From the IMG/VR virus record IMGVR_UViG_3300030329_003436, positions 31,471 through 95,470 of that record: a stretch of 64,000 nucleotides of DNA, one strand, 5' to 3'. Shown here one piece after another: positions 1 through 26,200 of this stretch (position 1 is its first letter; every line of letters begins with the position of its first letter). Made by a program: the position numbers and the translations under genes. The notes beneath the pieces were generated by a model. It did not search any database. It saw nothing but the letters and a program-made list of their open reading frames with translations, and was not told the origin of the DNA. The stretch is from a virus.

Positions 1-3000
1 CTAAGAATTGCTGGATGACCCATAAACAGCCAGTCGGAAGCCCAGTAACCACCGTTATAAACAAGTGGTATATCTATCGGTTGGTCCAGTCCGGGGCAAC
101 CATCTCTTACGTCGTAATGTGTTTTGTAACAATTTATGCCAGTTGCGGTGCTTGGTGGAAATTCTGCGCCGCCTTCGTTTTCGCATTTATGTGCTATACA
201 GGTAGCCGACGTATCATCCCAAATACACTTATTCGTCGCATTACAGTCTTGATTATTAGTTTTCTGTGCGCATATGGCGCTAGTTTTATTGTCCCTTCCC
301 CATACTCCATTTCTGAAAGAACCATTAGGTGAACGCTCACAAGCGTCTCCACACCACGCGCCGTCACCCAGATTGGTAAACTGCTGATCACAAGTTATAA
401 AATCTGTTTCACATAGGTCATCTCTTCCTTTTGGGTAGCCGGTACATGGCTCACATTCGCAATGTCCAGCCATAGGTGTTGGTTCACAATCAGCAATCGC
501 CTGACCCCCGTTATCTTGACATTCATCGGGAAAGCCATCACCATCCGTATCAACCGGTGTCGCGTTTGCGGGATCGGCGCAGGTCGCGATAACAGCGAAG
601 TCCGTACTACTGCCTGTGTAAGAACACTGATATACGTCGGCCACCATGCGACACTTCATGTGATCACACCCCTTCGTCGGATGACACTGCCAGCTACCAT
701 CCGTTCCGCAGCCTCCACATTTTTGCACAAATTCCTCAATTGTGGGGTTTTCTGGACAGCCGGAATCACACGCTCTTCCAGCAGCATTTTTGTCCATGCT
801 CGTACATTCACAGTTACAGCATGGGTCAGTTAGTTTACCATGAGTTTGAAGCCAATCAATTGGGAGGCGGTCGTCATCAATGTAACTTTTTCTTGCATCA
901 ATCGGATGGAAAGCGCAATCGTCACAACACTGTTTATTACAATGTTCTGTAAGACAAACACCAGAAGGAAGCGTGTCTGGATCGGTATCTTCCATGCAAT
1001 CTGCTAAACAGGCTCCGTGTGTTTTGCCACAGTGTTCGTTCTGCATAACGCTACAAGTCTTACCGTCAGCATACGGTTTTAAATGCCCAGTCCATACGCC
1101 ATCCTCTGTGTAATCACGATTACATCGACTATAACCAGCTTTTAACAGTCTAAATATAGAAGTATCTTGTGGGTGTACAGTGGCAACCAAATTTTCAGGC
1201 ATAAAATGGTCAGCGCAAACAGGACAGTTCTCTTTTTGTTCTATTTGCACATAGTAATTGTCTGACATATTGGGCAAATCATACCTTGCCATGCCAGTGC
1301 CGTCCCAACCATCTCTATACTCATTTGAAAAATGATCGTAAGGTGTTGAGCTTTGGGTTTCAGGAGATATGTACCACATACCGGTATAAGGACATGTTTT
1401 ATACGCTTCGACTCCCGATGTTCCTGTTGCTGGGTCGCCTATATCACCAACTATGAAATCATGGGGATTATCCCATGAAAACTGCTGCCAACACCCTGTT
1501 CCGTCAATGTCGCCAAAGATGTTTAACTCTGCGCACGGGGCAATTTGACCAGCAACAGCGTCTGCATATTTATGACCATTATCTTCATCGTATGAAACAT
1601 AGACCTCCGCCAATTTACGACAATCCTCCAAGCTCATTATCGCTTCCGGCTGGGTTCCGGGCGGGTTTCCTCCAGCAACAATTTCACATCCACCATACGT
1701 AATACATGACTCTTCGCTTTCGAGAAAAACTTCAGGGCTTGAAATAACAGTCGTGCTTAGTCCAGTTCCATCAACTGTTTGGCATGGGCATGCGGGTCTC
1801 AACCCATTGTGAGTAGCTACATAGCTTCCGCAAACCTTTTTTGTGCCATCAGTGAGGTCGCAAGATGTAAATCCTGTTGCAGTAACTTTGCCGTCTAAAG
1901 GCTCTCCATCACATGTAAATAGCTTGAAATAATTTTCATCGTATTTTTCTACAACAACCCATGGGGCCGGAAGCGGATTCCCCTCGTCATCTTTGCCGCT
2001 GTAACAAGTGTCTATAGAAGTGCCATCCGAAAATGTTACTTGATAATTACAAGTACCATCGTCTTCTGGAGGGCATTTTGCTTCTGGCCATGCTTGTTTG
2101 TCACAATGTTCGCCCTTGCATTTTCCACCGTCTTTGTCTTCCCATACGGTTTCATTCCATTCCCTATTGGTCATTCTGTTTGCTTTAAAATTACCCAATA
2201 CACCATTTATCTCAATCTGATCACCATTCTTAAGCAGGTGATTTCTTGACTTGATAATAACAGGACTGGTATTGCTTGCTATTTCAACCCTGCCAGATCT
2301 GGTTGTGCCTACGCAACTGTCTGCTACATAACTAATTCCTTCTTCATCTGGGTTTGGGTAAAGACCAGTTCTTCCCCAATAATCTAAACTGTCTCCAGCG
2401 CTATTAGGCTGTATTAATTTAGTTCCGTTATGACTGTACCCATAAACTAAATCTTTTAGTTCCGAGGGTATTTCTACTGTACTCTTGCAGCCAACACAAT
2501 TACTAGAACCACACATGCCTAGCTCCTGACAGGAGCCTTGAATCCACTCAAGAACCGGCCCCACACAGTCTGCTTCCGAATGACTTGTTGTTGTCTGGTC
2601 ACTCGTTGTTCTACAGTAGCCTCCTTCGTTAATATCCCACTTACACTGTTCACTGTTACACTCTCCCGGCGTTTTGTTGCCTTCGCATGGGCAATTACTT
2701 CCGGGCAGATTCAGAGAATTCCATGAAAAATCTGCGGCCAAGCAGTCTGCTTCATTATCATAAGGTTGCGGATTACCGTCCACGTCTACACATTCTGTAA
2801 GGTCACATCCAAGCTCTGATTTCCCCCATCCACAACCTATCCAATAACCACCAAGGACCAATTCACAATCGTCCCTGCCAGTGTCTCTACCTATGATATT
2901 AGGAGAGGGCAGTCCTGATGCGGGCGGTCTAGATGACAAACATACGCCTCTTCCTTCGCATTCACTTGGAGTAACCAGAATAGGCTCCTGCATCGCGTCT

Positions 3001-5867
3001 AATTCCATACATTCTGGATCTTCACAGGGGAACCAAGTTTTCCAGTTTGGCCCAACCTCTCCCGGCATACCAGTGCCGTTACATCTGCCGCCACACTGTG
3101 TTTCGCCGTAATGAGCAATTGTCCAATCGAGAACCTGTCTACCAATAGTTCGACACGGACCTCCAGCGGCGTGCATATTGTCAGCGGCGGTATAGGCAAA
3201 ATCATTCTTAAACCAGAAATCATAACCCTGTGTCATGTCCCAGTTACAAAAAGCACCGCCCATCCCTGCGCCACAATCTTGATCACAATTTTCATGCGTG
3301 TCGCCTTCAGCTATGCATCCGTCATAGCATCGCCAATAACTCACTCCAGAATCTATACAGGCGCTAAACATAGCAGCGTCTGTAACCGCTTCATCATATG
3401 TCTTATGCTTTTTCTGTTCTTGCTCTGTAGCCTTGAATGGCTGTGGGTGTATATTTAAAGCCCTTAACTTATAATGCCCTTTGGGATTGTCAATGCGGGC
3501 AAAACCGTTGGTATAACTGCTTTCGTAGTAGACATATTTACCACACCAACTTATCACGTCGCCTTCATGATTGTGTTCGTAATCTGGATCTCCGTCTAGA
3601 TCTTCATCCCATATTGAACACCAAGATTTATAGTCTCTAGAGCTATAATTATATGTTCCGGGGTAGAATCCTGCCGGATTACCATCTATATCCCCTCTAC
3701 TATCTAACCATCTTGCCTGACCCCATTTTCCATCTTCACTGCCTTTAGCTCCAGCTATTGGGGTTTTTACGGTTAGGTCAAAGTTGGAACAATTGAGCAT
3801 TTGATCAACAGGTATAAACAATACTGTTTCAAGACCCGGAGCGCCCTGTTTATGAGAAAGTTTTTCTAATTCTGCCGCCCATTGGTTTTGAGTCCATGTA
3901 TGTATCGGATTACCATTATCATCTTTATATGACAAACAGTCTTCTTGCGTAACATAGCCAGTATCTTGACCCTCTTTGTCTATACAAGCACCATCAGCAA
4001 TACAGTCTTCACGATTATCATGTGTTGTTTCTTCAGGAGGAGTTGTTTGCTTCTGACAAACAGACGCCGGTCTTGATGAACAATCACCGTAGTAGTCACA
4101 ACCCCTCAATATCAATGTAAAGTAATTGCCTCCGGTCATAGCGTCACCGGCTAAGGAGGTTCGCATGTGTGCGTTTTGTATTGAAGAGCAGGAGCTTGAC
4201 GCGCCTAACATTGCTCCTCCCGACGCAATATTTTCAGCGCCGGGGATAAGAATGGCTTCTCTATATGGGGTTATACAGGTGCCTTGGAGTCTTTCCTTGG
4301 TTAGCCCCGGTCCTCCAGCATTCATTTGTGATGGCCCAGTTAGGTTGGGTTGGTGATTAGGCCCATCGTCTGAAATAGCATACCCACTACAACAGGCCGA
4401 AGGGTTGAAGCCACGATCCACCCACTTAGGATACCAATCTCCACCGCAAGCCATACACTGCAATTCACCAACATTCCTACCCTCACCGTAGCATGTTCCG
4501 GTACTTGAATTCCACATACAGCCTTCTACACCCAAGCAAGCGACTGGATCTGTGGTTGCTGCGCAGATATCGTCACAATCAGAGTGTAGTGGTATTTCAT
4601 CACCGTTTTCGTCTAACTGTTCGCTACAAGTGGCCGCAGCTAAACATTCACTCTCTGTACATCCTTTTTCTGGAATCCAATCAAAACCGTTGTTGGTACA
4701 CGTCTGTTCATCTTTAATTTGTGTATTTGTACATACTCCACCACAATCTTTAAAAGCAGTCCCGTCTTTGTTTAAGCATCTACCAGACAATTGCGGAGCG
4801 ATTTCACCATCTCTAAGACATCCAGTACGTATAACATTGCTATCTTCGTTCCTACCTCCATAAACAGGAACGTCATTAAAATCTCCATAAATATTAGAGG
4901 AGTTTATTCTCCGGCCATCTGGACCTTGCGCCAAACTATCAATAGAGTCATAGACACCCTTAATACCGGAATAATTACAGTTAGATCGTTTTGAAATGGA
5001 TTTTCCCGGCCATGGGTATGGTCTCCATTCTATTATTTTTTCGCCCCGCTGCATTGCTTCTAGAGCGCGAATCGACCGTTCGTTGAGTTCGTTTTTACCT
5101 CCAAAGTATGCATGTAGCGTATCTCGACACGTTTCAGTGGTAGGGAGTATCGCGCTAATTGCAGGGCCAACCAGTGGAATCCTGCTGATGACAGCACCAG
5201 TGACCCACCCACATAATTCATATAGATTCTCTGCATGGTTTGCCGCTTCAATAAGCCTGTCTCTTACGTCATCGCAGTCTGTTTTTGTGGTGTAATTTGT
5301 CATCTCCTTATTTTCAAGAAGAAGCATGCACTTTCCGTTAGTTTCTTCCCACGCTACTCTAGCCTGACTATCCGAAGTGTCTATAACGTCAATCGTAGTT
5401 ACATCACATGGGTCGCAGTTAGGGTATAGAAGAACATCTTCATATTCATTGCCATTATAAATCTGTCCTCTACTCTTGGATGTTCCACCATCACAACATT
5501 TTCTACCACGCCAAGCGCCGTTATGATATCGCAAAAAGAACGTGTCGTTACCGTGTTCTTTCTCGTCACCAATAACTTCTCTAGCATACCAACGACCTTG
5601 TTTGTCTTGAACCACGCTTATAAGAAGTTCCTCTGGAAGATAGCATGGTCTACCTTCGGTTTCGGGAGTGGCAAATTCCGAACAAACACTATGACACCCA
5701 CACCCTACGTTACAAGGATGGCCACCATTATAGAAATAATTGAGGACACTTTGTTCATGATAGCCGTCTTCATAAAACGAAGCTCCGGCGACCTTGCCCG
5801 AATACCGGCCAGTCTTCTGGTTTTGTAGTCCCCCAGAGGAGGTGTCAAAATTGTCCCCAATTCCCAT
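1..5867 (-). CDS. Giant cysteine-rich tail-tip/adhesin protein, C-terminus beyond the window
   Basis: The minus-strand frame starts at ATG 5867, with AGGA six bases upstream. It stays open to the left edge, so at least 1,955 residues are present and the C-terminus is missing. I read it by eye and found no in-frame stop, including at spot checks near 5235, 2040 and the left edge. The product is very rich in Cys, Asp, Gly and Trp, with many CxxC and CC pairs. It repeats a short module, Cys - acidic/Gly linker - [T/S/N]xx[D/E/T]C - 3-7 residues - (G)xW, for example DEQTCTNNGFDW, GELQCMACGGDW, NEADCLAADFSW and SEADCVGPVLEW. It is the last gene of the tail-tip run visible here. I recognise no catalytic domain. 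A distal tail or receptor-binding role is inferred from position only. Confidence 0.85.
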   Translation of the reverse strand, partial: MGIGDNFDTSSGGLQNQKTGRYSGKVAGASFYEDGYHEQSVLNYFYNGGHPCNVGCGCHSVCSEFATPETEGRPCYLPEELLISVVQDKQGRWYAREVIGDEKEHGNDTFFLRYHNGAWRGRKCCDGGTSKSRGQIYNGNEYEDVLLYPNCDPCDVTTIDVIDTSDSQARVAWEETNGKCMLLLENKEMTNYTTKTDCDDVRDRLIEAANHAENLYELCGWVTGAVISRIPLVGPAISAILPTTETCRDTLHAYFGGKNELNERSIRALEAMQRGEKIIEWRPYPWPGKSISKRSNCNYSGIKGVYDSIDSLAQGPDGRRINSSNIYGDFNDVPVYGGRNEDSNVIRTGCLRDGEIAPQLSGRCLNKDGTAFKDCGGVCTNTQIKDEQTCTNNGFDWIPEKGCTESECLAAATCSEQLDENGDEIPLHSDCDDICAATTDPVACLGVEGCMWNSSTGTCYGEGRNVGELQCMACGGDWYPKWVDRGFNPSACCSGYAISDDGPNHQPNLTGPSQMNAGGPGLTKERLQGTCITPYREAILIPGAENIASGGAMLGASSSCSSIQNAHMRTSLAGDAMTGGNYFTLILRGCDYYGDCSSRPASVCQKQTTPPEETTHDNREDCIADGACIDKEGQDTGYVTQEDCLSYKDDNGNPIHTWTQNQWAAELEKLSHKQGAPGLETVLFIPVDQMLNCSNFDLTVKTPIAGAKGSEDGKWGQARWLDSRGDIDGNPAGFYPGTYNYSSRDYKSWCSIWDEDLDGDPDYEHNHEGDVISWCGKYVYYESSYTNGFARIDNPKGHYKLRALNIHPQPFKATEQEQKKHKTYDEAVTDAAMFSACIDSGVSYWRCYDGCIAEGDTHENCDQDCGAGMGGAFCNWDMTQGYDFWFKNDFAYTAADNMHAAGGPCRTIGRQVLDWTIAHYGETQCGGRCNGTGMPGEVGPNWKTWFPCEDPECMELDAMQEPILVTPSECEGRGVCLSSRPPASGLPSPNIIGRDTGRDDCELVLGGYWIGCGWGKSELGCDLTECVDVDGNPQPYDNEADCLAADFSWNSLNLPGSNCPCEGNKTPGECNSEQCKWDINEGGYCRTTSDQTTTSHSEADCVGPVLEWIQGSCQELGMCGSSNCVGCKSTVEIPSELKDLVYGYSHNGTKLIQPNSAGDSLDYWGRTGLYPNPDEEGISYVADSCVGTTRSGRVEIASNTSPVIIKSRNHLLKNGDQIEINGVLGNFKANRMTNREWNETVWEDKDGGKCKGEHCDKQAWPEAKCPPEDDGTCNYQVTFSDGTSIDTCYSGKDDEGNPLPAPWVVVEKYDENYFKLFTCDGEPLDGKVTATGFTSCDLTDGTKKVCGSYVATHNGLRPACPCQTVDGTGLSTTVISSPEVFLESEESCITYGGCEIVAGGNPPGTQPEAIMSLEDCRKLAEVYVSYDEDNGHKYADAVAGQIAPCAELNIFGDIDGTGCWQQFSWDNPHDFIVGDIGDPATGTSGVEAYKTCPYTGMWYISPETQSSTPYDHFSNEYRDGWDGTGMARYDLPNMSDNYYVQIEQKENCPVCADHFMPENLVATVHPQDTSIFRLLKAGYSRCNRDYTEDGVWTGHLKPYADGKTCSVMQNEHCGKTHGACLADCMEDTDPDTLPSGVCLTEHCNKQCCDDCAFHPIDARKSYIDDDRLPIDWLQTHGKLTDPCCNCECTSMDKNAAGRACDSGCPENPTIEEFVQKCGGCGTDGSWQCHPTKGCDHMKCRMVADVYQCSYTGSSTDFAVIATCADPANATPVDTDGDGFPDECQDNGGQAIADCEPTPMAGHCECEPCTGYPKGRDDLCETDFITCDQQFTNLGDGAWCGDACERSPNGSFRNGVWGRDNKTSAICAQKTNNQDCNATNKCIWDDTSATCIAHKCENEGGAEFPPSTATGINCYKTHYDVRDGCPGLDQPIDIPLVYNGGYWASDWLFMGHPAIL

Positions 5868-5875
5868 GTCTGTTC

Positions 5876-7702
5876 CTACCTAATTGCGGTCAGCGGGTAA
5901 TCATCGTCTGGCCCGCAGTCTTCTCCAGTAACAAAACCTTGAGCAAAAAACTTTCTTGTACAAGATGACATTTCACCCTGTTCGCAACCGGCATGGCTTA
6001 CTATTTCCATCCCAAAGAATTCAGCTTGTAGTATTATATGAATAGGTATAACTTCTTTAACTGATATTGCTTCCTGATCAGTTACCGTACAAACCGTATC
6101 GCTTTTAGATCTACTATATTCGACTACAATTCTTCTACCTGTATCATAACTTAAAAAGTTATCTCCTAGCATAAGTCCTTGATTTAATGGATTTTCAATA
6201 ATTATTTTTTGGTATAAAAGCGGGAGGGCTGTTTCGCTGAAGGTTGGTTCGGATTTTGTGCCATCATCTTTTTGTTTTCCAAGAACCTTATCAACTAATT
6301 TTTCACCTTCTGTTTCGTAATCTTTTGTAGAACCCCATCCATGACACGGATCTCCTAATCTACGAGCATAAGGATTTCCACCAGCAGCTTTATAAAATTT
6401 GTCTCCACAGTTAATTCTTGAATTTTTTCCATCTACTACATGATCTGTAGACCTTAGTATAACTGCATCATAAAAAGGGACGCACGCTCTTACAAATTCA
6501 TTACAGTTTGCGTACAAGTTGTCGTTAGAATCTTTTTTGGCCAGACATTGACCACACCAGTTTTCATCTTCTGGGTCGTAAATTTCTATGTCTGGGTATA
6601 AAGAGCTTTTAGGAAAGTACATAAAATAGTCACATTCATCCGATGGACAAGGGTTTCTATAAAGTCTACCCAAAGAAGCTATATTATTATTTATACCAAA
6701 ATTAAAACTATTACTTCCATCTATTCCAGCTTTCGGTAGTATACACTTAGTTGCTTTGCATAAATAAATTCCATTATGTCTACCGCCAACCCATACTTTT
6801 CTATCTCTATCCCATCTTAGGTCAATGGGACCGCTTTTCCATTGATCAGTTCTTTGCAGATGATGAGGGAGAAAGTGTATTTTGGGATTTTTCTGCGCGT
6901 AGTTAGCCGGTTCGTTTCTGGGAGATCCCCAAAAATCTGATTCTCTATCACCAACTCTTTGCACTGCATCATATTTAGCATTTGGGACGGGCATACCATG
7001 CGTGTCATACCCCCATCCCGTAAGAACAGCCGGTCCTCTTAGTCCAACAGGTCTTCCGGCTCCTCCCAACGCTTGATTCTCAGCGGTTATTCCTCCCAGT
7101 TTAGGATATGCAGTGCCTTCACCACCGTGCGTAAACTTAAGCTGACCCTTAACATCTTCTGTGCTTTCTCCACGAACCATGTAATTGACATTATGTCCCG
7201 ATGGATATGGATATAAGGTTGATGAATTAACCGTGCCAGAACCAATATGCCCCCAATCGGAAAGAACGATTTCTTCACCCTTTTCGTCTACAAAACTATA
7301 GGGCTTCTCAAAATGAGGCATCGCCTTTTGGCCGTCTACAATAAACCCTGTGGATGTAGCTGATTCACCCGCCGCGTTTCTTTTTGCAAAAGCGGCACTA
7401 TAAGGAATAAAAAGACCATCAAGACTCATCCCCGACTGACTCTTCCAATGGTCGGCAGACTTATCATGATGCTTGTCTAAAAACTTGGTCTTAAAGTTGT
7501 TCTGTGTTGTGTATACAACTTGTGCAGTGACATCCAAGTTGTCTATTGTCTCACCATCGTGACCTATCAAAGGAGACCCTGTTGGGTCAAGACTTGCTCC
7601 CCCTAAGTTCCTGTACAGAGTGCCGCCGATCATATTGATAGATATGTCAGGGTTGTGTTTTTTACTGACATTTACGTCAGGATCTTTTCTTGGTTCTACC
7701 AT
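5876..7702 (-). CDS. Tail-tip-associated structural protein (608 aa)
   Basis: The start ATG at 7702 follows CAGAGGATAAC, a good ribosome site. The gene sits two bases after the 2,111-residue hub-like gene and eight bases before the giant Cys-rich gene, in the same tail-tip operon. The first 300 residues are Gly/Asn/Asp-rich, beta-type sequence. The second half has paired cysteines (PCPSDECDYF, WCGQCLAKK, SSCTRKFF). The C-terminal stretch has a regular beta pattern before a Cys-containing end. I do not recognise the family. Context suggests a virion protein at the distal tail. The Cys content links it in style to its neighbours, but the full Cys/Trp module seen in them is not evident here. Confidence 0.75.
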   Translation of the reverse strand: MVEPRKDPDVNVSKKHNPDISINMIGGTLYRNLGGASLDPTGSPLIGHDGETIDNLDVTAQVVYTTQNNFKTKFLDKHHDKSADHWKSQSGMSLDGLFIPYSAAFAKRNAAGESATSTGFIVDGQKAMPHFEKPYSFVDEKGEEIVLSDWGHIGSGTVNSSTLYPYPSGHNVNYMVRGESTEDVKGQLKFTHGGEGTAYPKLGGITAENQALGGAGRPVGLRGPAVLTGWGYDTHGMPVPNAKYDAVQRVGDRESDFWGSPRNEPANYAQKNPKIHFLPHHLQRTDQWKSGPIDLRWDRDRKVWVGGRHNGIYLCKATKCILPKAGIDGSNSFNFGINNNIASLGRLYRNPCPSDECDYFMYFPKSSLYPDIEIYDPEDENWCGQCLAKKDSNDNLYANCNEFVRACVPFYDAVILRSTDHVVDGKNSRINCGDKFYKAAGGNPYARRLGDPCHGWGSTKDYETEGEKLVDKVLGKQKDDGTKSEPTFSETALPLLYQKIIIENPLNQGLMLGDNFLSYDTGRRIVVEYSRSKSDTVCTVTDQEAISVKEVIPIHIILQAEFFGMEIVSHAGCEQGEMSSCTRKFFAQGFVTGEDCGPDDDYPLTAIR

Positions 7703-7703
7703 G

Positions 7704-10700
7704 TTATCCTCTGTAGTTACTACGGAACTGTTGTGGGTCTGGAAGTCTGCTTCTTCTCAGGTCTTCCTCCTGTTTTGTACGAATATCCCTTATCTGCTTT
7801 GCTTGTTCTCGAATACGTTGCTCTTGTATTTCTTGCAGATTTCCAAACTTTGGTTGTAGCTGCATGTTATAAGTTGTACTCATTCCATCCGGCCCTACAT
7901 CAACCGACATATCTGTGATTATCGGACCAAAATACGGAGTCGCAGGTGGCCCAACAGCGTATAACGCTTGTAAATGTGGTGGGATTCTCGCCGGAATAGG
8001 TAAAGTACCAAAAGAAACATGGGTTCCTAAATCATAAAAAGGTGGACCATCTAGCGTTACACTTCCCCTTTCGGTCTCTTGATTGATTTTAAATTGGTCT
8101 ACATCTGCCAAGCATTTAGCTCTCGCAGCAAAAGCCATTTCGCTTTCTGCACCAAAGATTCCGGGGTGATAAGATGAGTCGTTAATATATAAAATCTTGC
8201 CCCAGTCTTTACCCTTAGACCACGGACCCCAATAGTAAATCCGACTCTCCATAGGAACCCCGGCATAGTAAGGCTTAAACGCAGCAGAAACCATAGGGGC
8301 TTTATTTATATCGGCACCCATTCTCATATGAACTGGATGATGGAAATAGTTGTTCAAAGCAGCCTTTAGATAAGCGTCTGCTGTTCTTGAGTCGCCAACC
8401 TTTGTAAGAGGGATGCATAGACTCGTTCCTTGAACCAGTTTTCGCCCAGACGTATCAACCCAATTATGCATCGGTATTGCTTCACACGCCGCTTTATCTA
8501 ATATCGGCACGCTCGTGGCTGGATGAACTCTAACAACTCTTCCAGTAACTAAATCTTCACAATAACCACTACCTGCGGGGGTTACATTGTCAGCAGTGCA
8601 TCTACCACCACTTATCCATGCAAATAATGGAGCTAAACATTCATCTTTTGGCCTGTCAACAACCTTGTCGGTGGATCTTTCTATACAAACCGCTGTCTCC
8701 CAGTGGCATCCTTCAGAATCGGGACCGGTCTGACATTCGTGTCTCGCAACCTTGTCAACCCATGTTCCACCATTGTCTAAACATAGTTCAGGCGTTCCCC
8801 ATGTGGGATCGTTGTGGTCACGTTTGGCTATACCGGCGCCTGTATCACAGTAAGGTATTCTATCACCAGCATCACAGTTATCATCAAACTCTTCTCCATC
8901 AGGAAACAGTTGGGCGCGTTTGTCATTGTAGGTATCAGGTAGGTCATATCTCGCGGCTCCACCTTCTATACTTATGAGAGCGTAAGGTTTTAAGAATGAA
9001 CTTCGGACACTTCTCCCTTTCCATTCATGATTAGCAGACCCTACAGTATTGAGAGCTAAACATTCCGCCTTGCTTTTTGGTGGTGGGTCGATAGCGTAAT
9101 AAGGATCAGCCATTGGCTCGCCATCTTTAAAGCATTCTTTTTTTTCCGACTCATTGGTAAGAGTTTCTATATAACTAATCTCTGGCAACCAGTATATCTT
9201 AGGATCTACGCTAGCCTTAACAAATACGGTTCCATCTTGAGAAGCATCGCCAGCTATATCGGAATAGAATTGTTCTATATAGGTCTCAGGGTTAAATTCC
9301 CTAAAACTTAATTTGTGCGGCTGGTGGCTTAGTCTTTGAATTTCTGTATTAGGAAATGCTACAAAAGCTTCTAAATTACCATCAGAATTCCAGAAGTTTT
9401 GATTAGCGGGATATCTTAGGTTTTCTTTGCTATTTATTCTTGGTTCATCTTCTATCCATTCCACGGTGACATTATTATCAATACCATAAATATAACAATC
9501 GTTAAGCCTTCTAATTTCTATGAGTTCTTGTAAGTTGGTTGTATCTACGCATACCCCCACATCGTTAAATGGCCATCCGGCACTTGCTATGTCCCACCTA
9601 TTGTCTACAATAATAACTTCGCCGTCCTTTTTAGAGACAACAGCCTGCCATTCACTTTGTATTCCGTAAGTAGACCACTTATGACCGTCATCTTCGCAGT
9701 CGGATATACTGTTATATTTATTCCAAGTGGCAGTAAAATTGACACAGTCTGTTTCGTTATCAATGGGCTTCCCGCCGTCTTCGCATGGAGATTCAAAGAT
9801 GGCTGTTACCGACTTAGCCTTTTCCTCGCATCCCGCTCTGGTCGATACGTCCACGGAATTGCCAGCAACGGTGATCAGGCCAGTATGTAGATTGCCATTT
9901 TCGTCTTTGCAGCATTGACATGTAGGACTTGCCGAGCATCCAACCTCAAGAGGTGGAGCAAACGGAAGCTGCATCAAATAAGTTCTTCCGTAATACTTGG
10001 TAGCTACTTCGTTGACAACTCTCCAAGAGAAATTCTTCTCCATCTTCTTGTGTTCTTCTGGAGTTAAATCAGCCCTTGTTCCCTTGCAGAGAAATGGAAC
10101 ACCTTCGTTATGCTCATCAACAGAAGTGTCGCCACTTTCGGATGGTTTTAGTACAGGGGGAATCGCCGGATACTCTGGACGGCCAACACCAAAGAATGCC
10201 TCCATAGCATGTTTCAAACCACCCTGCGTACTATCGTTCATTATGCACTCTTTCCATTCCATCTTGCATGGAAGCCAAGAGTCATAATTTCTCATATATT
10301 TAAACCACGCATCCTGACTGGTAGCAGCGTGTCGCAATTCGGTAACTGTCGCTAGATAGTGGTTTTCAGCCACCCCGTCTACTAAAATGTCTTCGCCGCT
10401 AGGTCCATGAATAAACCCAGCCAAATGGAGATTGATAGGAATTGTAGCGGTGTCAGGACGAACCAAATCTCCGGTGCCGGGATTCCAACCAGTCCACTTA
10501 TGAGGCTCCCATCGTGTTTTACAGGTATTGTCACCAGCATGCTCCCTGCAACAATAGTCCCTACATCCTTGTTCGTCGCCTGCGGTTACTTCGCTTTCAA
10601 CGTCAGCACCTGTAGACGGATCTACCTCAATTTTTACACAAGTCCCTTCGTTTGCACATTCGCCAGCGGTCAGCCCTGATACTCCAGCGGGTGCAGCAGT

Positions 10701-13700
10701 ACTCGGATCAACATGGTAAGGTTCACATTTTGCGTTTTCGTCACAGTCCTGTTTGTTATTATGATCCGTGTTTATACACCCACCCTCTTGAGCTTGTCTC
10801 ATTCCGGTGATAAAATTATAAGGATCTGGTTCGTCGTGGAATGTGCATCTTGAAAATGTAACATCAACCTCTTCTGCTGTTACAATAGCGTTCCCCGTTC
10901 TTACCCAGCTACCACCCAATTTTTCGCAACATAGTTTGCTTTCTGGGTCACATTCAGGATCGGTGTCAGGACAGGTCATTCCCGTACAAGATCCTTCTTG
11001 CGAGCTTGTCATGACAACTTCTTTTCTTCCGTAAGGATCATGGCAAAACAATGTATAACTGTATCCAGTAGCTACTTTCTTTTTCCTCTTCTCTCCATTC
11101 TCTACTATAGTTACAGTATCATAGAGACATGTGTCCATCTCGTGGCGTGAATCTTTATAACCAATGTTATGAAAGTTAAGATTGGAGGGTGATGGAATAT
11201 GGACCGAACTACATTTTCCTTCGTATCTGTCGAAAAATTCCTTATTGCTATAAATTCCGTCTTCTGAATCAAAATCTCTGTATGGGTCGTCATCATTAAA
11301 TGCGCCTTTGATCGGGTTTCCTCTAGTTGTATTTTTTACAAACCCATCAGAAGGAGTATTGATTAGCTGCTGATCGCTTATTGACCACCCCCACATCGGA
11401 TACAGATCTATGTAACCATCCCCTTCTTCAAAAGAATTGGACAACCAAACCGCTCCACGGTTGCCGCTAGAGTCTGTCCATGCAGCACAGTTTACTCTAC
11501 TCGATTCGTCAATCTTAGTCCAAGTACCAAGAGGGGAAGCTGGAGGTGTATCACAACTAACCTTACTGCTTCTTCCGGCTATAACATCACCAGCACCATC
11601 AAGGCACGCATAACAATTTCCACCAAAATCTATTCCTTCACAGGACTCATCGCCGTTGTGGTTATTTTCGTCAGATTCTTCCGAAGCATCAGCGTGCGGA
11701 GTACAATTGCCTCTTGCGGCCTCATTAAGCCTGCCCATGTCAGCCTTTATAATGCCTTCATCATCGTCAAAAGGATGAAAATGATTTTGCCAAGCTCGAT
11801 ATTCATCGCTTGACCAGCCAAGAGTGTATGTCCACTTCTCCCATTTTTTACCAGCGGCAATACAAGCAGCTTCTGTTGTGTGTGCCGGATCGTCACATTG
11901 TCCTGTGCATGTAGCAGGATACCCTCTTTGAGTCCCCGGAGCCTCATGACCTTCTGGGGTTAGACATATACCACCCCTAGCTCTCGCTTTGCCTCTTTCA
12001 TCGTAAGTGTCTATAGGTTGACTTCCAGTAACATAACCCAGACTTGCTCCATCTAATTCTGTACTGGGTAAGTATTCCATAGGCCATTCGTCGGGAATAC
12101 CATCGCCATCCTTATCAACATATTCGTCGTATCTGGGTTTTCGCTTACCTAATGGAGTTACGCCAACAACTCTTGTTCTTGGCCCTCCAAGCATAAATAC
12201 GCCAGTATAAACATCGTTGTATTCATAGCCGACATTTGTATTGCGGATGATAGGTTCAGAGTAGCCTAATGATGTACCATCCCACTTGAACTGTTCTTCC
12301 GTCCACCATGCGGTTGGGCTTCTTTTTACCAAAGCGTCATCAATACTGTCTGAAACAATATGAGGAACAATCTTATCTGCTTGGTTTCTTGGAATTGCCC
12401 ATACTTTAATAATTCCAGCATAGGTACTATCTTGAACAGTGGGTGCAGCAACACGCGAGGGTCCATACCAATTATTATATGCAATCCCGGCAAACGGGGT
12501 TACGCTTCCGGGTTCTGGGTCACGAATTAACTCAACAAAAAAATCTGCTCCGGCGGCTTCACAAATGGTTTGGATAAGAGAAAGTAGACTGACATGATTT
12601 TCGTTTATACGAAGACTCGAATCTAGATTTCCTCCCCCCCAAGGACGTTGACTACCCGGAATTTTAGAAGGGGGATTTTTAACCTTATGAAGATTATATA
12701 AATCAGTCAGATCTACTTTATATCTATACGGGCCTTCTTTTCTGTCAGAAGTCCTGCCTCTACCAGCGATAACCACGGGTTCATCGTCTGGACTAAAAGT
12801 ATTTCTGTTGTCTGTGACATAATACGATGGGCCACCCATAGGCTCATTTGCTCTTTTATAACATTCGTCTCCACCCATGAGCATAAAATTAAGAGCTGGT
12901 AGAATACCAAATTCCTGTTTTTCAAAAGGCGTGCCGCTAAGTCCTAGTGCGGCACCACCCCAAGTGCCACCGGGATCACACCCAAAAGGAGGATCAATTT
13001 TGACATCGGGATCGTACCATACCATCCCAGCTTCTTTCATTTCAGCGTTTCCAAACCTTCCGTTTGGATTGGCTCCGCTATTACCCAACTCTTCAAAAAT
13101 ACCGCCGGGAGGAGCAAGGTAATCAGATGCGGTAGGTGTTAAATCTGCAAACCCGTCAATATCCGGTCTAAACTGAGAGAACTCATAGTACCCAAACACG
13201 TTCAATATATTATAATAGCCGCTATACCCTTTTTCCATAGCCCTCATGTTGGGGATATCTCTGGTGTTTGCTGGTTCCGTCCCAGAATAGCCACTGATTA
13301 AATCATTACCGTCATAGAACCCTTCTACCGCATCTGGGTAATCAATATCTGCTGGCGCCACGGGGTTTATAAATCTTTCCCCTAACAACACTATGGTGTC
13401 TTCCAGAACAACTCTTGGGTCTACTACCTCTACCTGATAGGTTATTCCACGTTCGCTATAGTCTTTTTTTACATTTTTGATAATACCATTAAATTCAAAA
13501 ATAGAGCTATCTTGGTAATCATATTGATCTGCACCAGTAGCCGGTGGTGGTTTATGATTAGGATGCGTTACCCCCCACTCGCGTAATCTATAATTAAAAT
13601 AGACCGGCGCGCCAGCCCTTGGTTTAAAAAAGTAATCGCCGTTCTGTAAGTAGTCTGGTACTTCGTCAACAACTCTCCTGCTACTTGCATTAATAGCGGC

Positions 13701-14039
13701 ACAGTCGCAGTTTTCCCAAGGTCGGATATCAGTTACGCAATTGGGCGCGCAAGGCTGTCCAACTTTAACACCAGTAGAACGTTCTGCATCATAAAGTTCT
13801 AGTGGAAATGCCTGAGTATCCCAAGGATGATATCCTTCCTTAACAGCGTTTGGATTTCTTAGAAACTTATCATCTTCCACTAAAGACACATTTAGCGTAG
13901 AGGGCTGGCTATTTAGCCCTAAATTAACGCTAAAGTTTGTAATAGACGCACCAAGAAAAGACTGTTGAAATATTTCTTGGTTAATTTTATTTTTTGCGTT
14001 ACTGGGAAGAGTAACTGGATTGTTTTGTGGTTTAGGCAT
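7704..14039 (-). CDS. Giant tail hub-like protein with Cys/Trp-rich insertions (2,111 aa)
   Basis: The start at 14039 follows ACACAGGATAAAA. The N-terminal 250 residues look like a tail-hub barrel domain: a beta-rich opening (SFLGASITNFSVNLGL) followed by FNGIIKNVKKDYSERG and YQVEVVDPRVVLEDT, a pattern seen in gp27/gp44-type hub proteins. The last 150 residues return to ordinary tail-protein sequence ending in a charged helix (EIQEQRIREQAKQIRDI). Between them lie many Cys-rich segments, with endings such as TTEAACIAAGKKW, NETDCVNFTATW, TPELCLDNGGTW, PKDECLAPLFAW and DKAACEAIPMHNW. Typical hub proteins are 350-1,000 residues, so the extra length appears to come from these insertions. Its place after the tape measure fits a hub or tail-associated lysin-type protein. 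No peptidase motif was seen. Confidence 0.8.
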   Translation of the reverse strand: MPKPQNNPVTLPSNAKNKINQEIFQQSFLGASITNFSVNLGLNSQPSTLNVSLVEDDKFLRNPNAVKEGYHPWDTQAFPLELYDAERSTGVKVGQPCAPNCVTDIRPWENCDCAAINASSRRVVDEVPDYLQNGDYFFKPRAGAPVYFNYRLREWGVTHPNHKPPPATGADQYDYQDSSIFEFNGIIKNVKKDYSERGITYQVEVVDPRVVLEDTIVLLGERFINPVAPADIDYPDAVEGFYDGNDLISGYSGTEPANTRDIPNMRAMEKGYSGYYNILNVFGYYEFSQFRPDIDGFADLTPTASDYLAPPGGIFEELGNSGANPNGRFGNAEMKEAGMVWYDPDVKIDPPFGCDPGGTWGGAALGLSGTPFEKQEFGILPALNFMLMGGDECYKRANEPMGGPSYYVTDNRNTFSPDDEPVVIAGRGRTSDRKEGPYRYKVDLTDLYNLHKVKNPPSKIPGSQRPWGGGNLDSSLRINENHVSLLSLIQTICEAAGADFFVELIRDPEPGSVTPFAGIAYNNWYGPSRVAAPTVQDSTYAGIIKVWAIPRNQADKIVPHIVSDSIDDALVKRSPTAWWTEEQFKWDGTSLGYSEPIIRNTNVGYEYNDVYTGVFMLGGPRTRVVGVTPLGKRKPRYDEYVDKDGDGIPDEWPMEYLPSTELDGASLGYVTGSQPIDTYDERGKARARGGICLTPEGHEAPGTQRGYPATCTGQCDDPAHTTEAACIAAGKKWEKWTYTLGWSSDEYRAWQNHFHPFDDDEGIIKADMGRLNEAARGNCTPHADASEESDENNHNGDESCEGIDFGGNCYACLDGAGDVIAGRSSKVSCDTPPASPLGTWTKIDESSRVNCAAWTDSSGNRGAVWLSNSFEEGDGYIDLYPMWGWSISDQQLINTPSDGFVKNTTRGNPIKGAFNDDDPYRDFDSEDGIYSNKEFFDRYEGKCSSVHIPSPSNLNFHNIGYKDSRHEMDTCLYDTVTIVENGEKRKKKVATGYSYTLFCHDPYGRKEVVMTSSQEGSCTGMTCPDTDPECDPESKLCCEKLGGSWVRTGNAIVTAEEVDVTFSRCTFHDEPDPYNFITGMRQAQEGGCINTDHNNKQDCDENAKCEPYHVDPSTAAPAGVSGLTAGECANEGTCVKIEVDPSTGADVESEVTAGDEQGCRDYCCREHAGDNTCKTRWEPHKWTGWNPGTGDLVRPDTATIPINLHLAGFIHGPSGEDILVDGVAENHYLATVTELRHAATSQDAWFKYMRNYDSWLPCKMEWKECIMNDSTQGGLKHAMEAFFGVGRPEYPAIPPVLKPSESGDTSVDEHNEGVPFLCKGTRADLTPEEHKKMEKNFSWRVVNEVATKYYGRTYLMQLPFAPPLEVGCSASPTCQCCKDENGNLHTGLITVAGNSVDVSTRAGCEEKAKSVTAIFESPCEDGGKPIDNETDCVNFTATWNKYNSISDCEDDGHKWSTYGIQSEWQAVVSKKDGEVIIVDNRWDIASAGWPFNDVGVCVDTTNLQELIEIRRLNDCYIYGIDNNVTVEWIEDEPRINSKENLRYPANQNFWNSDGNLEAFVAFPNTEIQRLSHQPHKLSFREFNPETYIEQFYSDIAGDASQDGTVFVKASVDPKIYWLPEISYIETLTNESEKKECFKDGEPMADPYYAIDPPPKSKAECLALNTVGSANHEWKGRSVRSSFLKPYALISIEGGAARYDLPDTYNDKRAQLFPDGEEFDDNCDAGDRIPYCDTGAGIAKRDHNDPTWGTPELCLDNGGTWVDKVARHECQTGPDSEGCHWETAVCIERSTDKVVDRPKDECLAPLFAWISGGRCTADNVTPAGSGYCEDLVTGRVVRVHPATSVPILDKAACEAIPMHNWVDTSGRKLVQGTSLCIPLTKVGDSRTADAYLKAALNNYFHHPVHMRMGADINKAPMVSAAFKPYYAGVPMESRIYYWGPWSKGKDWGKILYINDSSYHPGIFGAESEMAFAARAKCLADVDQFKINQETERGSVTLDGPPFYDLGTHVSFGTLPIPARIPPHLQALYAVGPPATPYFGPIITDMSVDVGPDGMSTTYNMQLQPKFGNLQEIQEQRIREQAKQIRDIRTKQEEDLRRSRLPDPQQFRSNYRG

Positions 14040-14058
14040 TTTTATCCTGTGTCCATTT

Positions 14059-16557
14059 TTATGGCGTATCTACTCTAGTGTTGTTAGCATCAATTACATT
14101 TCCAAATGGGTATCTCAATGGAACGGTAGGACTAGATATTCCATTAGTGGTATTAAACCATGTAGGATTATTTGTTTGAGTAGGCGCAGCGGCAGGCCAA
14201 ACCCCTGCACCACCTACAGGCGGAACCCCACCATTGGTTGCTTGAGTATAAGGCTCTTCAATCTCATAAACCCAAGATATGTCAAGCGTATAAGCTCCAG
14301 TTCTTGGATTCCAAGACTCCGTAGGGGAGTTCATGAATACTTTTGTCACGCCGTCTATTCCGGGTATTGGTCTAAACATATTCACCACCCTCATTAATGA
14401 GGTTTTCTGGCCAATGCTATTAGATGGCTTCTCTTTCATTGCATCAAGATATCCTACTTTGTACTTTTCTCCTGTAACTGGATGCACCTTTTCTGAAAAG
14501 CGAGGAACTCTAAGCTCTCCAGCTAGTTGTTCTTCACCCCATAAGTTTGTATCTCCAATCCTTGTCTTATCAAGACCTTCAACTTGGTTCGGGTTTGCGC
14601 TTCTAACAATTGAGATGTCATCATGTTGTCTGTCATCAAAAACAAATTCACTTATAGTATCTACTATACAGCTTATACTTAACCTTCTTTCCCATTGTGT
14701 TTGAGTATTTATATTTTGGAAAACCGGACCTCTTGTTCTACCGAGAACTAGATGGCTACCATAAACCTCTCCCGGCATCGTGTCGTTTACACTGATGTCC
14801 TCCGATAAGGCAAACGGTAAATATGTTTCGGGACCATTATTAAATGAGAACCCGTATGTTATAACACCCGTCAGTGGACTTAGACTGTTGCTAACGCTGG
14901 TCGGTTTTGGGTTAATTTTAACATCATATCTTCCAAGCCTATTAACAGAAGATTGTACAGTTTGATATAATGTTCTTTGGTAAAAGTTAAATCTTGCTTC
15001 TGCCGCTTGATATTTAGACTGGAATGTTGGTGCTAATGCAATTGTGGTTTGATTTCCGGGGTTTGTTGTTTTTGGAGCATCTGTATGGTCTCCTGTTGCA
15101 CCCAAGTTATAATCAACATCGTCATCAGCCTCATAGTTCCAGTATATATCTTGTCTGTTTCCGTAGCTATCAATCCAAGAGGCGTTGTCAACAAGTCCTT
15201 CAATAGTGCCATTTATTGACACTTCAATAATTGGACTGTCGCCTGACTCGTTTACAGACATTTCCATTGTTTCTAAAGCTATACTGTCTGCGGGTGCAAC
15301 TATCCAATTTTCTGTTACAGTGAAACCACCTCCTAATTTGTCTACCTGTTGACTTCTTGTATAATTAAATCCTTTAAACGCATCTATACCTAGACCGTCT
15401 AAATTAATACCGCCTTTATCAAGGTCGTCATTATCAAGGGTCATTAAACCAGACCCAAAACCCGGACCAAAAGACGTAGTATTTCCTTCTATCTGATTCA
15501 TGCCTTTCAAGAACCAGTCTCCATACCTTAATGTATCATACACAAAACCCCTAGCTTGTTGCCAAGCTTCTCTATTATATGTATCGTTTGGATTATAAGC
15601 CTTCCAAAAATGTACAGGTGTTGCAACAGTTGGATTATCTCCTCTAGAGACATCAGTATAATAGTCTGATGCGACTGCGGGTGTAACAGCCTCGGAAGCA
15701 AATTGTCCCTTGCCTACCGCACTAACAGTTCTAGTCATTTGATAAACTTTATGTGTTTTAAATATAGACTCCTCTAAGACATCTCCAAATGTACCTGAAG
15801 AAAATCCTGTTTCAAAGTCAACTACATTTCCATCCGCGTCTGTGTTTACAGCAGCGCTAGCAGTTCCGTCGCCAGCACCCCTCTCTGGATTGTCGGACCT
15901 TCTAATGGTTCTGCTTTCTGTTTCTTGTATATCCCAGCTTTCTTGAGCGTCTGATATCATCCAAGCAACTTCTTTGGCAGTGGCATGTCTCTGACCATTA
16001 ATAAAACTGTCGTAATCACGCCAGTGCTGATATAACAGTGTTTCCGCTGGCCCCCAGATAGTATCTGCTTCTAACTGAATGGTATACTGTGATATGTTTG
16101 GATTACCGGGATCATGAGAGGGAAAATCTAGACTCACAAATCTGGGATAGATAATCATCCCGTCAAAGCTTTGATTGTTGGGTGGGATTATATGTAATAA
16201 GCCACCCTCATTTCTTTTGGAGAAGAGATTCATTAAAAGCTTTTGCTTCGCCTGTATTGCTCTATACTCCCTTCCTTCTAGTTTGCCCCACGTAATTCTG
16301 TCATCACCCTTATCTCCGGTATCTAGAGAACTTTTATCATCACTAAAAATTGCTCGCATCTCGCCTGTTGCGTCATCAAACGCAATATAGGGCGACCCCA
16401 TGCCCGCCATGAGAGTTCCTTCAAGAGTAATGCTGTAAGTTACTCCTAGTATTTCTCCACTACCTGATTTCGCAAAGTTTTTTGTTATATTTACAAATGG
16501 GGTGGGATGTATGAAATGCACCTCTGATGAATTTGGATTTTGATATGATAGTGGCAT
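14059..16557 (-). CDS. Distal-tail/baseplate-like structural protein (832 aa)
   Basis: The start ATG at 16557 follows GGGGATTAAA. The N-terminal portion (about residues 15-180: TPFVNITKNFAKSGSGEILG and GVTYSITLEGTLMAG, then QYTIQLEADTIWG) has the beta pattern of tail-tube-related distal tail proteins. The middle and C-terminal parts are beta-rich with Asn/Gly turns, and Cys is scarce compared with its neighbours. It lies one base from the LamG protein upstream and 19 bases from the giant hub-like gene downstream. Order tape measure - LamG protein - this protein - hub suggests a distal tail or hub-base role. That role is inferred; I recognise no named family with certainty. Confidence 0.72.
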   Translation of the reverse strand: MPLSYQNPNSSEVHFIHPTPFVNITKNFAKSGSGEILGVTYSITLEGTLMAGMGSPYIAFDDATGEMRAIFSDDKSSLDTGDKGDDRITWGKLEGREYRAIQAKQKLLMNLFSKRNEGGLLHIIPPNNQSFDGMIIYPRFVSLDFPSHDPGNPNISQYTIQLEADTIWGPAETLLYQHWRDYDSFINGQRHATAKEVAWMISDAQESWDIQETESRTIRRSDNPERGAGDGTASAAVNTDADGNVVDFETGFSSGTFGDVLEESIFKTHKVYQMTRTVSAVGKGQFASEAVTPAVASDYYTDVSRGDNPTVATPVHFWKAYNPNDTYNREAWQQARGFVYDTLRYGDWFLKGMNQIEGNTTSFGPGFGSGLMTLDNDDLDKGGINLDGLGIDAFKGFNYTRSQQVDKLGGGFTVTENWIVAPADSIALETMEMSVNESGDSPIIEVSINGTIEGLVDNASWIDSYGNRQDIYWNYEADDDVDYNLGATGDHTDAPKTTNPGNQTTIALAPTFQSKYQAAEARFNFYQRTLYQTVQSSVNRLGRYDVKINPKPTSVSNSLSPLTGVITYGFSFNNGPETYLPFALSEDISVNDTMPGEVYGSHLVLGRTRGPVFQNINTQTQWERRLSISCIVDTISEFVFDDRQHDDISIVRSANPNQVEGLDKTRIGDTNLWGEEQLAGELRVPRFSEKVHPVTGEKYKVGYLDAMKEKPSNSIGQKTSLMRVVNMFRPIPGIDGVTKVFMNSPTESWNPRTGAYTLDISWVYEIEEPYTQATNGGVPPVGGAGVWPAAAPTQTNNPTWFNTTNGISSPTVPLRYPFGNVIDANNTRVDTP

Positions 16558-16558
16558 T

Positions 16559-19099
16559 TTAATCCCCTTTGATTAATATTTTTAATATACCGCTTGGAGA
16601 AGCGATTGTATTTGGTATTGACAAATTCATTGTTCCTGACGGTCTTGCAAGTCCAGTGGTAAATAGATTCATGCTATCGTTTGTGGTAATTGCGGGTAGT
16701 CCAGCAACAGAACCTATACCAGCCAAATCTCTTTGGTTCAAATATAGATTCATTATACCACTTGCATTTTGTCTAATTGGAGAATCAATAAAGAGTTTTA
16801 TACTATTGTTTATAGCTGTAGTACTTTGTTGTGCAAAAAGATTAAGTGTGGCAGTTGGTTTTGTACCTTCCGTATACAGCAGTCTTCTATTATTTATAGT
16901 TCCAATACCAACGTTAGGCATAGCTAATATCATTGTCCCGCTAGGAGTGCCTCTTCCGGGCGGTCCTAGTATATACAGATCTCTTGTGCTATTTAGGAAT
17001 GGGTAGGATACAGTTGCGCCTAAAGTGTATAAATCTGCCGTGCGTCTTGTTGATGTAAAATCGTCAACTTTTGCATACAGATTCATAGCGGCGGCACTCA
17101 TACCACCCTTGGAGAACAAGTTCATTGTTCTATTTGTAATTACAGACGCGCCAGCCGTGATAAAACCATGGCCAGTATCTCCTAATGCCGAAGATGATTC
17201 CTTCTTCACAAAGAGGTTCATACTTGCGGCGGCAACATCGGCGTCTACAAATAGATTCATATCACTGTTGATTGCCGTGACAGTTGTACCTCTAGTAAAT
17301 AGATTCGGGCCATTTAGACTTAAACTATTAAAAGTTTCAAAACTACTGTATTTTACTCTTGTTGAATATATCTTAAATTCGCCGTCATATGGAAAATCAG
17401 CTTTTGGGTATACTACAGTAAGGTTTAGTTTATGATTTGCAAAAGCGTTAAAGAAAGATAAACCATCTTTACCATATATAACGTCAGGCATATCAGCGCT
17501 AAACGTAAGCTTGGTCTTTCCTCCAGAAGGAACATACTTATAGCCGCCAGCCCAATTAACGTTAAGACCAGACGCTGCTGTAGCTGTTTTGTTTGTTATT
17601 GATGCGTAAATATCCGCACCACTTGGATGATTAGTTGAGTTCTCTACCCAAGCCTCTACGGTTAAACCGGTAAGCTGGAAAAAATTTGTTGGAGGATTAA
17701 CAAGATCAAAACTGAGTACGGAAGATACGGCGTTCTTGGTAGGTGTTCTTACAAGACTGCCACAGTCACCACTTGCCTTATTGTAGTTATATAGAGCAAA
17801 AGCACCGCCTTTGGTATTGGTGCCATCTACTCCAGACTCCACAGAGAGTTCAATATACTCAGTATCTAAAGCGTCAAATGCGCCCGTTCCTGTCTCGGTG
17901 GTTGGCCAGAAATCGTCACTTCCACCAAAAGCCTGACCGTCAAATGCCCCACCTGTTGGCGAACCAAGTTCCTCAACAAAGTTTCCAAGACGATAGATAG
18001 AGTTATAGAAGTTCTTAATGTCTTTATCTTTTAGGCCACTACCCATGACAGCAAGTTCGTCAAACCATCCACGGAAACCCTGCTCCAAGAAGGGGCGATG
18101 TTTCTTGCCTACCATAATCTCAGTATGGGCGCACGAGGAAGTGTCTCTGGAAAAACTCCCTGATGAACCTTCCAGATTGCCATTAACATAGATCCTCAGT
18201 TGTCCTTCGTCATATTTTCCTATGACATGGGTTGGGAACCTGTAGGAATCAAACCTATTAAGGGTTCTGGCATATCTTGCGGTGTTTACCCCGGACACGC
18301 TTTGATCCGCGCGAATATAATACCTTCCGTCGTAATCACACCCCATTATAATGTTGGCTGGGTCTTCTTTGTGTTGCGACATGAAGATGGAGTTAGTGGG
18401 TTCGCCACTGGGGAGAATCTTTGCGTAAGCTGTGTAATCACCACAAAGGTTAACACCACTACCGAGATTAAGGTGGGCATCTTTAGAAAGGTACAAGGCT
18501 CTTGCGGGGATTGCATCTCTACCCACTTCACATCTTAAAGCACCGCCTTCGTACCATTGGGCATGTCCACCCGTGGTGGTATACTGGATTGTGGTAGCCG
18601 ACCCTACGCATGTTCCTGCGTCCGTATCCGAGTCTGACTCCCCGATACGTGTTGGAGCAACCGGATTACATCCTACCGCTGCCGAACATTCACTTGTTAG
18701 CGCGGACCATTCTCCCGACCATGTTCCACCACAAGCGTCACACTCTGTTTTTGTGGTTTCTGACCCCATACAGGTTCCACCTGAACAAGAACTGCCTGTC
18801 CATTGCCAATCGCCATCCTTACCAGAGCAGTCGTCACCTTCTGATGCAGTTCCACTACCCGGAATACTGACAACAGGACTTCCGCCATAGACACCACTAC
18901 CTTCTAGCGGTAAAAACCTTCCACCAGCTTCACTAAACTTAGACTTTATTTCTTTGTAATAATTGCCTCGCCAGTAACCATAGTCGCGGTTTTTCTCACC
19001 GGCATCATTAATAGTTCCGCTAGGTGCGAGCGCCTTCTCACCGGCGTTTGACACACCGGCTAGAATGACTAATCCTACATTACCATTTATTGATGCCAT
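16559..19099 (-). CDS. LamG-domain tail protein with Cys module and MNLF repeats (846 aa)
   Basis: The start at 19099 follows AGGATCATTAA. Three regions are visible. About residues 85-200 are Cys/Trp-rich and include TKTECDACGGTW, the module found in the neighbouring giant proteins. About residues 205-370 look like a concanavalin A/LamG fold (Laminin_G_3 type), with YAKILPSGE, GQLRIYVNGNLEGS and GWFDELAVMGSGL; such domains bind glycans. From about residue 600 to the end, a short unit ending in MNLF, LNLF or MNLY recurs a dozen or so times (SDMNLFVDA, NRTMNLFSKG, SGTMNLSIP), suggesting a stacked beta structure. It is the first gene after the tape measure, so it is probably exposed at the tail tip and may bind a surface polysaccharide. 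Confidence 0.8.
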   Translation of the reverse strand: MASINGNVGLVILAGVSNAGEKALAPSGTINDAGEKNRDYGYWRGNYYKEIKSKFSEAGGRFLPLEGSGVYGGSPVVSIPGSGTASEGDDCSGKDGDWQWTGSSCSGGTCMGSETTKTECDACGGTWSGEWSALTSECSAAVGCNPVAPTRIGESDSDTDAGTCVGSATTIQYTTTGGHAQWYEGGALRCEVGRDAIPARALYLSKDAHLNLGSGVNLCGDYTAYAKILPSGEPTNSIFMSQHKEDPANIIMGCDYDGRYYIRADQSVSGVNTARYARTLNRFDSYRFPTHVIGKYDEGQLRIYVNGNLEGSSGSFSRDTSSCAHTEIMVGKKHRPFLEQGFRGWFDELAVMGSGLKDKDIKNFYNSIYRLGNFVEELGSPTGGAFDGQAFGGSDDFWPTTETGTGAFDALDTEYIELSVESGVDGTNTKGGAFALYNYNKASGDCGSLVRTPTKNAVSSVLSFDLVNPPTNFFQLTGLTVEAWVENSTNHPSGADIYASITNKTATAASGLNVNWAGGYKYVPSGGKTKLTFSADMPDVIYGKDGLSFFNAFANHKLNLTVVYPKADFPYDGEFKIYSTRVKYSSFETFNSLSLNGPNLFTRGTTVTAINSDMNLFVDADVAAASMNLFVKKESSSALGDTGHGFITAGASVITNRTMNLFSKGGMSAAAMNLYAKVDDFTSTRRTADLYTLGATVSYPFLNSTRDLYILGPPGRGTPSGTMILAMPNVGIGTINNRRLLYTEGTKPTATLNLFAQQSTTAINNSIKLFIDSPIRQNASGIMNLYLNQRDLAGIGSVAGLPAITTNDSMNLFTTGLARPSGTMNLSIPNTIASPSGILKILIKGD

Positions 19100-26128: not shown

Positions 26129-26200
26129 GTTGGGAACCCCAAAAAAAATGGGCATACCGATAGCGCAGAGCTACGCGATACACCCACTATCTTTTATAAA

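Follow-up and report, generated by a model that had tools for sequence, protein, structure and literature searches.

Tiny cysteine-stabilised repeats are familiar from extracellular proteins, in which EGF-like and PSI domains carry six to eight cysteines. In phages, Ig-like and other add-on domains of about 80-100 residues occur as small inserts in unrelated virion proteins and are gained and lost, and a large survey of shared phage-protein fragments required a length of 50 residues (PMC10684548). Disulfides have been described in the tail and baseplate of Agrobacterium phage Milano, where they link subunits and where the tail contracts in vitro only if a reducing agent is present (PMC10811340). 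Closest to the sequences considered here are two baseplate proteins of phage T4: a loop of gp8 (residues 139-163 of PDB 1N7Z; PF09215) and domain 3 of gp10 (PF22670; about residues 329-354) share the pattern C-x10-C-x6-W together with a capping box and a Gly-Gly pair. A review of the T4 tail gives Cys555 as the only gp10 cysteine conserved across all T4-like phages (PMC3004832), which agrees with the absence of this unit from some gp10 proteins. The open-access literature yielded no description of the unit, nor of the cysteine pair of gp8 or gp10; it is already visible in the solved T4 structures, but as far as we found it has not been named there as a module.

The window analysed here is a stretch of 64,000 nucleotides, bases 31471-95470 of a virus record of 97,582 bases. 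Whereas T4 gp8 and gp10 each hold one copy in a known fold, the window phage carries many, some of them in arrays, in unrelated giant proteins. At about 20-25 residues, with a predicted disulfide closure and a position inside loops, the module is far smaller than the Ig-like domains; its cysteines are a predicted local pair within one loop, unlike the described Milano bonds; and it has one cysteine pair and one Trp, unlike the EGF-like and PSI domains, whose Pfam models it did not match. We consider it likely, at a probability of roughly two in three, that each repeat is a copy of a single autonomous, self-folding, disulfide-closed mobile mini-domain that stiffens exposed loops.

The tail block and its repeats

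The repeats lie in a minus-strand block (1-26155) whose gene order runs from the tape measure protein F through E, D, C and B to A. The features are as follows, G009 being a distant relative described below.

19115..26155, minus strand: protein F, tape measure (Pfam PhageMin_Tail, E=2.9e-31), 2346 residues, no Cys
16559..19099, minus strand: protein E, LamG-like (Pfam Laminin_G_3, E=5e-11), 846 residues, 13 Cys, module or modules in the N-terminal part
14059..16557, minus strand: protein D, 832 residues, 1 Cys, without the module, orthologue in G009
7704..14039, minus strand: protein C, putative hub-like tail-tip protein, 2111 residues, 62 Cys, orthologue in G009
5876..7702, minus strand: protein B, 608 residues, without the module, 13 of 14 Cys kept in G009
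3..5867, minus strand: protein A, Cys-dense giant, N-terminal 1955 of 3096 residues in the window, running on to record base 28047

The full length of A follows from its extension beyond the left edge of the window, and its cysteine content (187 of 3096 residues, 6%) sets it, with C and E, against D and F. Judged by gene position, with the module-bearing E, C and A adjoining the tape measure gene, this is a tail-tip block. Because A, B, C and D all went unmatched in domain-family searches, the hub role of C is likewise proposed from its position. None of these four matched gp8 (PF09215) over the whole protein, and when the proteins were searched singly, viral contigs gave no relative for C or D and phage records none for C or A. 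Elsewhere the window encodes a protein with a terminal endosialidase-chaperone S74 domain (32453-34693), a tail-spike-like virion protein of 1876 residues (41983-47613; phrog_6002, phrog_4636) and a GDP-mannose 4,6-dehydratase (58353-59414; Pfam E=2.8e-109). By eye, many genes at about 3255-24700 of record G000 (L001, L002) resemble those for sugar-nucleotide enzymes and glycosyltransferases, as does the dehydratase gene of the window, and G009 has a similar cluster.

A preliminary description of this stretch had reported a Cys/Trp motif recurring at least 15 times in three proteins, and all motifs quoted there indeed occur in the minus-strand reading frames of E, C and A; B and D, in the same interval, had no copy. 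The loose pattern [TSND]xx[DETAKQ]C-x(3,7)-W, compared with composition-preserving shuffles, gave nine copies in A against 2.0 (nine being reached in 0 of 2000 shuffles), four in C against 0.6 and one in E against 0.07. When an upstream Cys was required, about 15 distinct copies remained within the window, and A has three more to the left of it. We also built a profile of 73 copies from other, nearly all viral, sequences, with every window sequence left out; at 2 bits or more it recovered ten window copies (five in A, four in C and one in E) against a shuffle background of about 0.01 per protein, or about 0.03 in total. This was the strongest of the tests, and it confirms the motif. The copies are listed below, the relative being G009.

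18719..18772, minus strand: module in E, residues 110-127, CMGSETTKTECDACGGTW; scoring 10.0 bits against the window-free profile; Trp end opposite a gap in the relative
11841..11897, minus strand: module in C, residues 715-733, CDDPAHTTEAACIAAGKKW; found by the profile; AlphaFold strand-helix-strand, pLDDT 83-90 at fragment residues 21-40
10905..10952, minus strand: module-like copy in C, residues 1030-1045, ending CEKLGGSW; 6.6 bits; mostly gap in the relative
10743..10778, minus strand: degenerate copy in C, residues 1088-1099, CINTDHNNKQDC, without Trp; 4.4 bits
9723..9785, minus strand: module in C, residues 1419-1439, CEDGGKPIDNETDCVNFTATW; wholly opposite a gap in the relative
9675..9710, minus strand: second half-module in C, residues 1444-1455, SISDCEDDGHKW; kept in the relative as NRADCTDNGYDW
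8760..8849, minus strand: module in C, residues 1731-1760, ending TPELCLDNGGTW, first of a three-member array; 10.5 bits; opposite a gap in the relative
8616..8687, minus strand: module in C, residues 1785-1808, CIERSTDKVVDRPKDECLAPLFAW, second array member; found by pattern; within the same insertion as the first
8460..8561, minus strand: module in C, residues 1827-1860, ending DKAACEAIPMHNW, third array member; found by pattern; partly opposite a gap in the relative
4677..4733, minus strand: module in A, residues 379-397, CTNTQIKDEQTCTNNGFDW; aligned with a module of the relative
4512..4565, minus strand: module in A, residues 435-452, CAATTDPVACLGVEGCMW; aligned with a module of the relative
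4434..4457, minus strand: module end in A, residues 471-478, CMACGGDW; aligned with CLAAGNTW of the relative
2841..2942, minus strand: module in A with a long first loop, ending GRDDCELVLGGYW (residue 1009); found by pattern
2721..2792, minus strand: module in A, residues 1026-1049, CVDVDGNPQPYDNEADCLAADFSW; 3.8 bits; second Cys and Trp not conserved in the relative
2637..2687, minus strand: module-like copy in A, residues 1061-1077, CEGNKTPGECNSEQCKW; found by pattern
2544..2615, minus strand: module in A, residues 1085-1108, CRTTSDQTTTSHSEADCVGPVLEW; the relative has the two Cys and the Trp at matching positions
219..272, minus strand: module in A, residues 1866-1883, CAQKTNNQDCNATNKCIW; found by pattern; second Cys and Trp aligned in the relative

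Many of the window copies are divergent, and a few lack the Gly-Gly or the Trp. Three of them (E 110-127, C 715-733 and C 1731-1760) fit or nearly fit the gp8/gp10 rule, the others being looser. Simple DNA duplication within the window is unlikely, as had been supposed, because the copies differ too much.

Sequence rule and predicted fold

In its canonical form the motif reads C-x(10)-C-x(4)-GxW, with Asp or Glu before the second cysteine (Cys2), in a unit of about 20-25 residues. Among the 73 profile copies, 54 had ten residues between the first cysteine (Cys1) and Cys2, followed by Gly-Gly, and 69 had a helix N-cap residue (Asn, Thr, Ser or Asp) four positions before Cys2. At the module, Pfam and NCBIfam gave no match at curated cut-offs, the EGF-like, PSI, zinc and other families all being negative. 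A four-cysteine variant, C-x-C...C-x6-W-x-C, was seen in L014 (9584-12325), L040, L046 and L019, with up to three copies per protein.

Structure prediction, proposed in the preliminary description, was run with AlphaFold on a tail-tube-like family unrelated to the window proteins and on residues 690-760 of the window protein C. Both runs returned a strand, a two-turn helix and a second strand, with Cys1 ending the first strand, Cys2 in the helix and the Trp starting the second strand, and confidence was 83-90 within the module and about 50-70 outside it; only the tube-like run is fully independent, since the alignment used for C presumed homology. A Foldseek search with the 71-residue module model gave no usable match.

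From these predictions the module would be a strand that ends in Cys1, a loop (ten residues between the cysteines in most copies) and a two-turn, N-capped helix in which Cys2 directly follows the capping box [N/T/S/D]-x-x-[D/E], after which a Gly-Gly turn would lead into a second strand beginning with the Trp. Spacing and co-conservation strongly suggest a local disulfide between Cys1 and Cys2, and the Trp probably packs on the hairpin. Such a piece, held by the disulfide and the Trp packing, would fold alone with its ends kept close, and could for that reason be inserted into surface loops of unrelated virion proteins with the host fold undisturbed. Its most likely job would be mechanical, that of a stapled loop cap which stiffens exposed loops and offers a surface for subunit contacts; for receptor binding, which had been put forward beside stabilisation, we found no support.

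The synthesis of phage proteins in a reducing cytoplasm speaks against a disulfide, and the preliminary description had called dense disulfides odd for this reason. They are unusual in phage virions, but phage Milano supplies a precedent, having tail disulfides despite a reducing cytoplasm (PMC10811340), and in the module the cysteine pair may be oxidised after the virion is released from the cell. It is improbable, in our estimate, that the pair is instead a metal site or a redox switch triggering a change in the tail. An invariant cysteine pair with an acidic residue beside Cys2 and often a His or Tyr in the loop would suit such a role, as would the reductant needed for Milano tail contraction in vitro (PMC10811340), whereas the two cysteines of the module are joined by no further invariant ligand, the position of the His is also taken by Tyr and other residues, and no zinc-binding family matches.

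Comparison with a syntenic relative

The relative G009 (L033, with L406-L408; IMG/VR 3300030098_004740, 92.6 kb) was recovered through the module pattern only and not by the single-protein searches. It holds A to E in the same order, with 24-48% identity over aligned blocks and a weaker match for F; its A protein has 3768 residues and 167 Cys. Several modules of A and the half-module at C 1444-1455 are common to both phages. G009 has neither the copy at C 1419-1439 nor an insertion of about 100 residues that holds most of the three-module array, and 28 of the 62 cysteines of C lie opposite gaps. The window proteins therefore contain both old and lineage-specific copies, some being shared with G009 and others absent there.

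These alignments bear on a further possibility, that larger Cys-rich domains of A and C were duplicated internally in the ordinary way and inherited vertically, the window copies being only the visible part of them and unlinked to the T4-type module. Protein A would allow this, many of its 187 cysteines lying outside the motif and 102 aligning with cysteines of G009. Such a history is nevertheless improbable, although marginally less so than the metal or redox site, in view of the profile that recovers the window copies from other viruses alone, the location of copies in three different proteins (E, C and A) and the several copies that are insertions relative to G009.

Occurrence in other phages

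Far from being limited to the window phage, a DNA pattern for [DE]CxAxGGTW occurred in at least 119 IMG/VR stretches, mainly within open frames that also encode a Cys upstream. The stricter two-Cys DNA pattern matched 61 viral stretches against nine in bacterial and archaeal genomes totalling 257 Gb, for which our own estimate of the chance expectation is about eight; three of the nine also score with the profile, and among these profile-scoring matches two look exported (L131, with a signal-peptide-like start, and L137, PilY1-like). Single modules in bacteria were noted in a Patescibacteria protein (L131), a PilY1-like protein of a Nitrospirae MAG (L137) and a repetitive Marinicella protein (L138).

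Matches were found in 858 records of annotated phages, and nearly all among the matches listed were baseplate wedge genes. Against solved structures, the profile ranked T4 gp8 first (1N7Z, E=5e-4; module at residues 142-160) and the gp8 of another phage second, followed by weaker matches to gp10 of T4 and of that other phage; the E-value for gp10 was only 0.2, and the alignment retains all key residues. In the T4-like phage RB14 the profile matched exactly two sites in 165 kb, within genes 8 and 10, and a wedge protein of Pseudomonas phage Illi-2 also carries the module. One T4-like record (IMG/VR 2974739009; L362 and L363) carries gp8 twice, in genes of equal similarity separated by about 13.5 kb, from either duplication or an assembly artefact.

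After masking of the module, 265 module-bearing frames fell into 37 clusters that blastp did not join, which is no proof that all are unrelated, and about 20 of these had complete modules. The backgrounds include gp8, gp10, tail-tube-like proteins (from a fold search), head or connector-like proteins (phrog_2941), fibre-like proteins, podovirus tail proteins and LamG proteins, among others. Two proteins that could not be aligned (L030 and L023) had modules identical at 16 of 19 residues, including loop residues.

Convergence is the most serious alternative, unrelated proteins having independently reached a capped helix turn, a Gly-Gly, a Trp and one disulfide as loop staples, with no mobile module. 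The motif is short, every conserved residue has a plausible structural reason, and it appears in a few cellular proteins; moreover, near-identical DNA was not found across backgrounds, the best nucleotide identity in a limited sample being 79%. With that value no recent transfer was caught, the case for mobility comes from presence and absence together with protein similarity, and convergence keeps about one chance in six. It accounts poorly for identities of up to 16 of 19 residues, loop residues included, between unalignable proteins, for the strong phage bias and for clean insertions and losses of the whole cassette. We infer common descent, and with it some route by which copies have moved between genes.

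Gain and loss of the module

In the tube-like family, 26 homologues had both Cys and the Trp, 22 had none of the three, and no partial state was found. A tree of the family, made with the module columns left out, implied six gains or losses, at least four of them forced by well-supported branches. Two members that are near-identical outside the module (L181 and L183) are set apart by a single insertion, exact to the codon and about 30 codons long; in L181 this insertion is bordered on either side by the six-base word AATACT, which may be the footprint of a deletion or insertion or may be chance. This family (A5) was considered as a form of gp8 and rejected, because its Pfam and PHROGs match covers the module alone and its fold is tail-tube-like. 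Three members of the connector-like family (L211, L214 and L216) carry a different Cys-pair insert (STEAQCNILGDSAAVSYDAATNYCTI) in another loop, perhaps a second kind of stapled insert.

For gp8, C142, C153 and W160 were present in 48 of 48 sequences, the neighbouring Cys133 in 34 of 48 and Cys114 in 7 of 47. For gp10, 40 homologues had the complete module and all others lacked both Cys and the Trp. The one-Cys state was thus unseen in the tube-like, gp8 and gp10 families, in agreement with the predicted disulfide.

The module would accordingly be read as a cassette that is acquired or shed whole in T4-like wedge, tube-like and connector-like proteins and in fibres, and repeatedly in E, C and A. 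The earlier proposal of a mobile module spread through tail-tip loops is well supported as to mobility by the all-or-none gain and loss, the roughly 20 backgrounds, the shared predicted microfold and the insertions relative to G009. Its restriction to tail tips has to be given up, given the copies in T4 gp8 and gp10, tail-tube-like and connector-like proteins and fibres.

Conclusions

Beyond the mobile mini-domain that we favour for the window repeats, we lean somewhat toward the broader view that this stapled cassette of about 20-25 residues commonly serves tailed-phage virions as a mobile building block, present in about 20 unrelated structural proteins, two of the T4 baseplate among them, and proliferated into giant tail-tip arrays in some uncultured phages. 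A domain-shuffling survey of 50-residue fragments would overlook it, and that requirement (PMC10684548) may explain its lack of a name. If the broader view is true, the module would rank with the smallest known protein domains that are mobile and would offer a loop insert that is natural and minimal, and many virions would be stabilised by disulfides formed after release. It would also give a reason for the invariant cysteines of T4 gp8 and gp10, undiscussed in one review, and it makes testable both the routine use of extracellular disulfides by phages assembled in the cytoplasm and the minimum size at which a protein module still moves between unrelated genes.
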